This document shows, piece after piece, positions 8,607 through 61,726 of a stretch of DNA of 64,000 nt. The position numbers and the translations under genes are program-made. Source of the stretch: a virus; IMG/VR virus record IMGVR_UViG_3300017917_001342, positions 62,001-126,000 of that record; one strand, written 5' to 3'. The notes under the pieces were generated by a model, which did no database searches, was not told where the DNA came from, and saw nothing but the letters and a program-made list of their open reading frames with translations. Position 1 is the first letter of the stretch, and each line of letters opens with the position of its first letter.

Positions 8607-9083
8607 CTATGGATGAAGTGGGAATTGACCTACAATAGTAAACAATTCTTCTTTGTATCCAAAGATGTAGGCCGCAGTTGCTTCTTTACGGAAGCAGGTA
8701 TAACCACCACTTGCATTAGGAATAGGCTGTGCAGTGTGATTGGTAGGATAGATCAAACTGAAAATTTCAGCATCAACAGTATAGGGATATGTAGGATCGA
8801 TTACTACACCCTGTGCAAATCCCATTTGTTCAGCTTGGTTAACCGCATCTACTACTGCTGCCCATGGCGCTTTGAGGTTAATCTGTGTACCAAATCCTTG
8901 TGACGTAGCAGACATCCATTCTTGTACCAATGGATTGATGTCATCGCCGTGCTTCATAGGTTCGATTACGTTGCGTTGCACAAAAGCATTAGCAGCATGT
9001 CCGCTGTGTGCTTGCGCTTTGCCAGGAGTCATACTGTTCATATCAGTGCGAACAAACACATAGAGGACAGGAATATCTGCCAT
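8607..9083 (-). CDS. Peptidyl-tRNA hydrolase 2-like protein
   Basis: The N-terminal part, YVFVRTDMNSMTPGKAQAHSGHAANAF, matches the Pth2 pattern of a hydrophobic strand, R-x-D, G-K-x-A/Q and a (C/S)-H-A-A helix. Pth2 enzymes release peptides from stalled peptidyl-tRNA. The 158 residues are longer than typical Pth2 (about 120), with extra sequence in the second half. AAGGA precedes the ATG. A tRNA-linked role fits the phage's tRNA and RNA ligase genes; the family call is moderately secure. Confidence 0.6.
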   Translation of the reverse strand: MADIPVLYVFVRTDMNSMTPGKAQAHSGHAANAFVQRNVIEPMKHGDDINPLVQEWMSATSQGFGTQINLKAPWAAVVDAVNQAEQMGFAQGVVIDPTYPYTVDAEIFSLIYPTNHTAQPIPNASGGYTCFRKEATAAYIFGYKEELFTIVGQFPLHP

Positions 9084-57597: not shown

Positions 57598-57674
57598 GGG
57601 GGGTTAGCTCAATTGGTTAGAGCGTCGGACTCATAATCCGCAGGTTATCGGTTCGAGTCCGGTACCCCCTACCA
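57598..57674 (+). tRNA. tRNA with CAU anticodon
   Basis: All arms are canonical, with D-loop GG, T-loop TTCGAGT and encoded CCA. The anticodon loop is CTCATAA. It could be elongator Met or Ile2 (if modified to lysidine); acceptor features do not settle which. Confidence 0.93.
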
Positions 57675-57679
57675 AAACT

Positions 57680-57754
57680 GCGTATGTGGTCCAGACAGAT
57701 GGGCACAGGATTCTAAACCCTAGGAGGCAGGCGCAATACCTGTCATGCGCACCA
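57680..57754 (+). tRNA. Aberrant tRNA with CUA anticodon (candidate amber suppressor)
   Basis: A full cloverleaf can be drawn. The acceptor GCGTATG/CATGCGC has 7 pairs, the D-stem GTCC/GGGC 4 and the T-stem GCAGG/CCTGT 5, with CCA encoded at 57752-57754. The anticodon loop is TTCTAAA (57711-57717), giving CUA. Odd points: the D-loop AGACAGAT lacks GG. The T-loop is CGCAATA, not TTCRANY. The anticodon stem has only three Watson-Crick pairs plus two A-C positions. It is 33 nt upstream of a gene with UAG at codon 3. Confidence 0.55.
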
Positions 57755-57760
57755 TAAATA
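57755..57760 (+). promoter_or_regulatory. Late promoter box TAAATA
   Basis: Directly abuts the CCA of the aberrant tRNA and lies 27 nt before ATG 57788. Confidence 0.5.
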
Positions 57761-57787
57761 AAACAGTGTTTAAGGAGATATAACACC

Positions 57788-58420
57788 ATGTCGTAGATTG
57801 AAATTGCCTGTAACGATTTAGTATTCCACTTTAATAAAAAACACTTAGAAGATCCCACTATTCCTATGTGGGTTGTCAAGGCCAAAGGCGAAACCTATTA
57901 CGTTCATCATGTCACTAGCGACATGCCTTGGTCTACTAAAGAAACTCCAAACAACGCCAGTACCAAAGGCAGCATCAAATTTAAAAAGTGTCATCTTATC
58001 ATTGATGACAACAACGAAGCTACAATTAAGCCGTTGACTATGCTTAATGCAATGCGCCTCAAAAAAACCGAGCCTAAGAAGATTCGGTTGATTATGGACT
58101 ATCGTAAGCACATAGACGAATTTATCGAATATTGCGACGAACAAAATATTCAACACGACGGTGTACATATACTTCCTGGCAGTTGCGGTTCTAGATACTA
58201 TGCAACAGAAATCAAAGAAGATGATCTATTGCTGTTGCGTATGTGGTTCCCACCGAAGATGTTTAGAGAATTGATGCCTAACGAGTATCTCTACAGCTAC
58301 TACGATAAGCATGCTGCGGGTGTTGAACCACCAGACTACGACGATGATGACTACGAAGATGATCTCGATGACGATACAGACGAAACGGTCACATCATACG
58401 AAGATCTCTATGAAAACTAA
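57788..58420 (+). CDS. Conserved-type phage protein with in-frame UAG at codon 3
   Basis: AAGGAG sits 8 nt before ATG 57788. The frame reads M S, then TAG (57794-57796), then an open frame IEIACNDLVFHFNKKHLED into the rest of the gene. The first in-frame ATG after it, at 57866, has no ribosome binding site. The product of about 210 residues has VVKAKGETYYVHHVTSDMPWS and KGSIKFKKCHLIIDDNN, an alpha-beta protein with an acidic tail. Similar proteins exist in T4-like cyanophages as far as I recall, but function is unknown. Expression needs UAG readthrough or reinitiation. Confidence 0.7.
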
Positions 58421-58715: not shown

Positions 58716-58745
58716 CCCGGGAATCGAAAGATTTCCGGGTTTTTT
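58716..58745 (+). terminator. Rho-independent terminator
   Basis: CCCGGGAATC, GAAA, GATTTCCGGG then TTTTTT; 10-bp stem with one wobble and a tetraloop. Confidence 0.88.
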
Positions 58746-61646: not shown

Positions 61647-61726
61647 GGGGTCGTAGCTTAACACGACAAAAGCGGGGCGCTTGCGGCCCGAGATACGGGT
61701 ATGCGTTAGTCCCGTCGATTCCACCA
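61647..61726 (+). ncRNA. Aberrant tRNA-like RNA, possible UUG anticodon
   Basis: Acceptor GGGGTCG/CGATTCC (two wobbles), T8, D-stem GCTT/AAGC, stem GGGC/GCCC with loop GCTTGCG, and encoded CCA. The T-arm is ACGGG/CCCGT with an 11-nt loop, TATGCGTTAGT. The D-loop AACACGACAA lacks GG and position 33 would be C. The anticodon would read UUG (Gln), but the fold is poor enough that function as a tRNA is open. Confidence 0.5.

Follow-up and report, generated by a model that had tools for sequence, protein, structure and literature searches.

The expression of a viral gene whose third codon is UAG is very probably controlled by a single-codon translational gate that would be opened by a dedicated suppressor tRNA of the phage, a reading drawn from comparison with related loci. 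The gene lies in a stretch of 64,000 nucleotides, here called the window, which corresponds to G000:C1:62001-126000 of a 518,643-base virus record (G000). A preliminary description of the window had suggested that the gene might be switched on by a tRNA with a CUA anticodon located directly upstream, and the comparison supports such a switch in that relatives keep both the TAG and the CUA tRNA and the stop codon matches the anticodon. A check for relatives that lack the tRNA and have a sense codon in place of the TAG showed instead that the two elements were overwhelmingly retained together. The description can be refined in two respects, as the genome has a second CUA tRNA and the gate is part of a two-gene module that includes a Pth2-like protein.

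The window locus

The elements of the locus, all on the plus strand, were as follows.

57598..57674 (+): tRNA-Met(CAU) (ARAGORN; Rfam, 68.6 bits; same order in L001)
57680..57754 (+): amber suppressor tRNA, CUA anticodon, encoded CCA (RF00005; covariance model R1; covariation in 45 relatives)
57772..57777 (+): Shine-Dalgarno sequence AAGGAG (sequence; position shared with L001 and the majority of relatives)
57788..57790 (+): ATG start codon (sequence and relatives)
57794..57796 (+): UAG as the third codon, in frame, the putative gate, next base A (kept in 90 of 100 distinct homologues)
57788..58420 (+): putative gated gene, 210 residues with the UAG read, TAA end (reading frame and alignment)
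57797..58042 (+): beta-rich N-terminal domain, motif VFHFNKKHLEDPTIPMW (alignments; AlphaFold)
58716..58745 (+): hairpin resembling an intrinsic terminator, 3' of the gated gene (sequence)

The tRNA-like element had been described as having a seven-pair acceptor stem, an encoded CCA and a CUA loop, with its end at 57754. The assignment was upheld by Infernal, since cmscan matched positions 57680-57751 (+) to RF00005 with 32.6 bits, above the gathering cut-off of 29 (E 1.5e-4 to 6e-4); ARAGORN, run on the window, made no call for 57680-57754. The family covariance model R1, constructed from the CUA tRNAs of 45 relatives with 21 pairs, gave 56.3 bits, the window tRNA being one of its 45 sequences. 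All seven acceptor pairs were formed, the D and T stems were GUCC/GGGC and GCAGG/CCUGU, and the anticodon loop, UUCUAAA, had seven nucleotides with U33 and A37. The weak points raised in the preliminary description are real, as C27-A43 and A31-C39 in the anticodon stem are mismatched and the T loop reads CGCAAUA. The folding energy of the single sequence was unexceptional (z -0.9). The tRNA-Met and the suppressor tRNA, 5 nt apart, probably share one transcript.

The gene reads ATG TCG TAG, followed by the reported 207 codons up to the TAA at 58420, and the next ATG, GTG or TTG after the TAG is indeed residue 27. The AAGGAG was found upstream of the ATG, but the spacer is 10 nt rather than the 8 nt described.

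A second CUA tRNA of G000 was located outside the window, about 10 kb downstream (C1:129519-129593; L089:3619-3693), so the CUA tRNA adjacent to the gene may not act alone. The second tRNA has G73 and D and T arms of canonical form, and two of its acceptor pairs are mismatched. About 17 bases after it is the sequence ATG AGA TAG with about 40 open codons but no evident ribosome site. The same record has a further tRNA-like element at 61647-61723 (+) of the window (Rfam, 26.3 bits against a gathering cut-off of 29; no ARAGORN call) and a candidate phage-encoded tmRNA (L098:6343-6751) with the tag peptide ANDNVAPSYALAA. It also encodes an ungated, divergent Pth2-like protein (MADIPVLYVFVRTDMNSMTPGKAQ...) at 8796-9065 (-) of the window and a canonical Pth2 at G000:C1:161224.

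Conservation of the early TAG

The window protein with the TAG read as Gln (P0001) was used as the query, and the best 80 of 240 IMG/VR stretches were pooled with two later scans and cultured phages to give 100 distinct proteins, with identity down to about 40%. The codon-3 comparison proposed earlier gave the following picture: 1) in 90 of the 100 homologues an in-frame TAG occurred 1-5 codons after the ATG and 8-11 codons ahead of the FHFN motif, and loci lacking it carried the stop in a Pth2-like gene or a leader, 2) the TAG was present in 48 of 57 representatives with less than 85% identity over the domain, 3) neither TAA nor TGA was found at the TAG position among the 100 homologues, 4) the ATG was two codons ahead of the TAG in 67 homologues and 5) the base after the TAG was a purine in 90/90 (A in 82, G in 8). 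On this comparative evidence, the TAG at codon 3 is not there by chance.

Residues V12, F13, H14, F15, N16, K17, H19, D22 and P26 were invariant in 55 aligned full-length proteins, and the invariant columns between the TAG and residue 27 argue that this segment is translated. The distance from the TAG to the conserved motif differed among homologues, and 76 of the 90 had no ATG, GTG or TTG from the TAG to the FHFN motif. The codon directly after the TAG was ATT in 61 of the 90; ATC, GTA, ACT, GTT, AAC and AAA also occurred. In three loci (L007, L051 and L149) the ATG of the gene coincides with or adjoins the position of the TAG codon, so that the leader residues themselves are dispensable. The TGA of L252 lies upstream of the gene, which starts at a separate ATG; the contig is cut within its Pth2-like gene.

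Two GIY-YIG endonuclease genes (L055:4476 and L153:3125) open with an ATG-n-TAG-IEYS leader that resembles the one of the beta-domain gene, and look as if a homing endonuclease had been inserted beside the gate.

The suppressor tRNA in related loci

Of the 80 best loci, 78 had a CUA tRNA nearby when all calls were combined. ARAGORN detected it in most of them, labelled tRNA-Pyl from the anticodon only, and the covariance model added nine, including that of L001, the nearest relative of the window. For L008 and L059 the tRNA was located at another place on the contig. In the remaining two, the gene was at the contig edge (L039) or the contig was short (L060). Among the 90 TAG loci, 17 had no CUA tRNA within the stretch examined, many of these being short or at contig ends.

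The typical distance between gene and CUA tRNA was 15-900 bases, and in loci with several tRNAs the nearest was CUA in 21 of 24 cases, compared with 5.9 expected. The tRNA was mostly upstream of the gene, although the order varied, and it was immediately downstream in Rhizobium phage RHph_I1_18.

In the alignment of 45 CUA tRNAs, 93.6% of the cells were paired, as opposed to 68.8% after shuffling, with covariation scores of 0.73 and 0.23, respectively. The acceptor stem was re-paired even in close relatives (GCGUGUA/UAUACGC in L001, GCGCCUU/AGGGCGC in L023), and U33, C34, U35, A36 and A37 were invariant in the 45 aligned relatives. The acceptor end was also well conserved, with G1-C72 in 82 of 83 and C2-G71 in 75 of 83 sequences and a discriminator that was A in 68 and G in 14; the variable loop was short. 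The isotype suggested by the nearest sequence was Val in 21 cases, Lys in 20 and others in the rest, and we presume that the acceptor end together with U35 would best suit LysRS and thus lysine. Pair 27-43 or 31-39 was absent in many of these tRNAs, and the degenerate anticodon stem may aid suppression because loss of pair 27-43 can raise the read-through of CUA tRNAs (review, PMC13092985).

A Pth2-like gene as the alternative site

In L007, L149 and the L164-L174 group the beta-domain gene lacks the TAG, which is carried by a Pth2-like gene (PF01981) directly upstream. Its start reads ATG ACT TAG in L165, ATG AAG TAG in L170 and ATG AAA TAG in L007, and in L149 an ATG GCA-type leader is followed by TAG (MA*). 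In Sinorhizobium phage Phosso the domain is fused to another protein and is free of stops, and the Pth2 opens with ATG AAG TAT TAG, ahead of the start given in the annotation. The four examples tested exceeded the PF01981 cut-off of 23 bits (L165, 24.8; L170, 30.7; Phosso, 60.6; Agrobacterium phage Atu_ph07, 59.2).

A scan with the L170-type Pth2 gave 18 loci, most with ATG-n-TAG and a nearby CUA tRNA, while viral scans with the Atu_ph07-type and the L007-type Pth2, one each, returned only the query itself. In all, 25 distinct genes of the divergent Pth2-like subfamily were gated near the start by an automatic rule, in addition to those of ScoobyDoobyDoo, which has a GTG start, and L260. In the latter (L260:2999-3292) the TAG is codon 33, within the Pth2-like domain, and a CUA tRNA is directly downstream, which suggests that the gate can lie inside the protein. 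The canonical, GK-type Pth2 genes of L224, L090, L226, L273, L220 and L269 were ungated, and in L258 and L259 a CUA tRNA adjoins a Pth2-like gene that contains no in-frame TAG. Since L127 and L158 gate the beta-domain gene and leave the Pth2-like gene ungated, and other loci gate only the Pth2-like gene, one gate per module is the rule. Some carriers that are uncultured or Lak-type (LR756501, Lak-B1) may be recoded throughout the genome and were left out of the evidence.

L051 has the TAG in neither gene. In L051:5794-6000 a CUA tRNA is followed by a leader reading ATG TTA AAA GAG CAC TAG, a hairpin resembling an intrinsic terminator and then the beta-domain gene, which has a plain ATG. From this arrangement, the leader could be a suppressor-controlled attenuator in which read-through acts by antitermination.

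Cultured phages and the match between stop and anticodon

The published tRNA set of Atu_ph07 lacks a CUA tRNA, its sole suppressor having the anticodon UCA (PMC6102473), and ARAGORN likewise found a UCA suppressor tRNA. The Pth2 gene of this phage reads ATG ATT GGC GAA CAC TTT TGA ATT AAT, with no start codon ahead of the annotated, truncated one. The pairing of TGA with UCA, although a single case, is precisely what the gate model would predict.

In the mycobacteriophages Alice and Cane17 an in-frame ATG TAG GTG, and in Myrna and ScoobyDoobyDoo an in-frame GTG TAG GTG, was found ahead of Pth2; in Alice, Myrna and ScoobyDoobyDoo a CUA tRNA is located just downstream. The RTG-TAG sits six to seven bases past a good -10 box, a spacing that would result in a leaderless mRNA starting at the RTG codon. 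The annotated start of these genes is the GTG after the TAG, and translation may truly begin there. Phabba, which has the other type of Pth2, was examined and had no RTG-TAG feature. XacN1 has two CUA tRNAs, beside which no gated gene was recognised. There (L271:16047-19050) the suppressor tRNAs are in tandem and are followed by one open reading frame and 2.5 kb devoid of annotated genes, a stretch that seems to contain further tRNA-like sequence. Taken over all loci, the sequences indicate that the gate is present in phages of very different hosts, the cultured examples being phages of rhizobia, Agrobacterium and mycobacteria.

The encoded proteins

Residues 4-85 of the window protein were predicted by AlphaFold to form a beta-rich domain with high confidence (pLDDT 93.8). 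Neither the protein nor the domain had a significant family or fold match in Pfam, PHROGs or the PDB, and the one strong match in BFVD was an uncharacterised phage homologue. The C-terminal half was predicted to have a ferredoxin-like fold, with weak likeness to S10/NusE or ACT domains and an acidic tail. The beta domain stands alone in RHph_I1_18 (76 aa) and is fused to other sequence in Phosso and Atu_ph07. The collection of bacterial and archaeal genomes gave a single match, an ungated beta domain in a tRNA array of Paenibacillus sp. FSL H7-0326 (L118:4965-5219). The best reading of these comparisons is a module consisting of a Pth2-like protein and a new 75-aa domain, and the tRNA arrays and peptidyl-tRNA hydrolase relatives near the domain suggest that it may help to handle tRNAs or ribosomes.

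Absence of genome-wide recoding

The preliminary description had held that TAG is not recoded throughout the genome, and the full record agreed. TAG is the rarest terminator in G000 and ends 26 of 399 open reading frames of at least 150 aa. When the 518 kb of G000 were scanned for an ATG-n-stop with a long open frame behind it, two TAG cases emerged, of which only one is a convincing gated gene; the other (C1:227684, minus strand) was rejected as antisense to a MazG-like reading frame. Eight candidates for ordinary read-through after TAG were also rejected, since they did not exceed the expectation based on TAA and TGA and resembled antisense or low-complexity sequence. Applied to all loci, the same scan returned 66 TAG genes of the beta-domain family, two small Pth2-like TAG sets and the GIY-YIG pair. 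The remaining matches were singletons, about as many with TAG as with TAA or with TGA, and the TAA and TGA versions gave unrelated singletons only. No excess of TAG-split open reading frames was found outside the gated families over the loci as a whole. Genetic code 15, with genome-wide recoding of TAG, was rejected for G000, where TAG still terminates genes.

Proposed mechanism and alternatives

Ribosomes would begin at the ATG, in the window at 57788, and reach the UAG after one to four residues. When only host tRNAs are available, RF1 would release the chain as a di- to pentapeptide, leaving the gene off. Once transcribed, processed and charged, the phage CUA tRNA would compete with RF1 at the UAG, allowing the downstream protein to be made. 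Within the small module of the tRNA region, the gate would be confined to a single gene, that of either the beta-domain or the Pth2-like protein. Read-through of the UAG, the amino acid inserted and a role in timing are all inferred from the comparison. Points that weigh against the gate are the aberrant structure of the window tRNA, the second CUA tRNA of G000, the ungated Pth2-like genes of L258 and L259, the 17 TAG loci with no CUA tRNA in the stretch examined and the two CUA tRNAs of XacN1.

The main rival is that translation truly initiates after the TAG, either at residue 27 or at a codon other than AUG, for example ATT, with termination and reinitiation at the mini-ORF and no part for the CUA tRNA; it is considered improbable. 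AUU is a rare start codon, known from IF3, and the high frequency of ATT after the TAG is what such a mechanism would favor, as are the TAG-less homologues with ATG at or beside that position. However, any stop would then suffice, yet the rarest terminator of G000 was used 90 times and TAA and TGA not at all, and TGA occurs just where the tRNA is UCA. In addition, both the codon after the TAG and its distance from the conserved motif vary, the TAG of L260 is codon 33 inside the conserved Pth2-like domain and a start at residue 27 would forfeit the invariant residues 12-26. It is less probable again that the mini-ORF is itself the product, AUG-n-UAG serving by peptidyl-tRNA drop-off as a signal or trap, like the lambda bar minigene, that is handled by the linked hydrolase, with read-through secondary. 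A gate of 2-6 codons and a linked gene of the PTH2 family would fit, but the downstream frame is always in register, mostly with no other start before the motif, the gate of L260 is again at codon 33 and the conserved CUA tRNA is left unexplained.

The tRNA could also serve chiefly to perturb host termination, or be a relic of past recoding, in which case the TAG gene is a by-product. Anti-host roles have been proposed for phage suppressor tRNAs that have no apparent target (PMC12386605) and Lak-type phages are among the Pth2-like carriers; the tight linkage to one module in very distant phages and the matching of stop and anticodon are nevertheless unexpected for a by-product, and the idea is judged slightly more doubtful than the mini-ORF product. 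Hardly any weight is given to two ideas for which no support was found: a sequencing or assembly error, which is opposed by the agreement of independent contigs and cultured phages, and genome-wide reassignment of TAG, which is opposed by the 26 long reading frames that TAG ends in G000, the one convincing gated gene there and the lack of excess TAG-split frames outside the families.

If the UAG is read only by the tRNA of the phage, a suppressor-opened gate reports the supply of phage tRNA. Its purpose may, tentatively and with somewhat less than an even chance, be a checkpoint by which the module stays inactive until functional phage tRNAs are present; late timing or host restriction would look identical in sequence. 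The broader proposition is about evenly balanced: that an early stop and a matching suppressor form a widespread AND-gate of tRNA-rich phages, which would check that phage tRNAs are made and charged before a translation-acting Pth2-like or beta-domain module is produced, and might be a door to genome-wide recoding.

Comparison with known systems

If the gate is real, it would explain the purpose of the long-puzzling suppressor tRNAs of giant phages and name a conserved target for the class. The question can be tested in the cultured phages RHph_I1_18, Phosso and Atu_ph07 and the mycobacteriophages Alice and Myrna. It would also expose a systematic annotation error, in which gated genes are missed (RHph_I1_18) or truncated (the Pth2 of Phosso and Atu_ph07), and a natural gene-specific amber switch would serve as a tool and as a model for the onset of stop reassignment. 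A literature search, mostly of open-access papers, yielded no account of a one-codon gate near the N-terminus that is served by its own tRNA, and priority is accordingly uncertain.

The autoregulation of RF2 (prfB), in which an early in-frame UGA and a +1 frameshift sense the level of RF2, is similar in that an early stop senses decoding against termination, whereas the gate would use a matching phage suppressor tRNA and need no frameshift. The pyrrolysine system likewise has a dedicated CUA tRNA and reads UAG in a few genes. However, tRNA-Pyl has a single base before the D stem and a small D loop, while the gate tRNAs have an ordinary cloverleaf and D arm with two bases (U8, R9) before the D stem, and the UAG of the gate is in a dispensable leader rather than an active site. 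The linked gene resembles canonical PTH2 (PF01981) in that the four tested examples passed the Pfam cut-off, but the gated putative hydrolases mostly lack the 'GK' motif and keep Q..Q..HA and EPDxxNxxTA.

Suppressor tRNAs of the same kind (CUA; UCA in Atu_ph07) occur in XacN1, Atu_ph07 and clade-8 Zeta crAss phages, which use the standard code as here; PMC5852040 and PMC12386605 report no target for them and PMC6102473 names no particular one, whereas a target is now proposed for the class, Atu_ph07 included and XacN1 excepted. In the recoding phages (code 15 or code 4; crAss-like, Lak, phAss-1), for which a part in timing has been suggested (PMC9523058, PMC10607447, PMC10879173, PMC12386605), a phage suppressor tRNA also reads an in-frame stop in a standard-code host, but the proposed gate is a single codon near the start of one module, and TAG still ends other genes.
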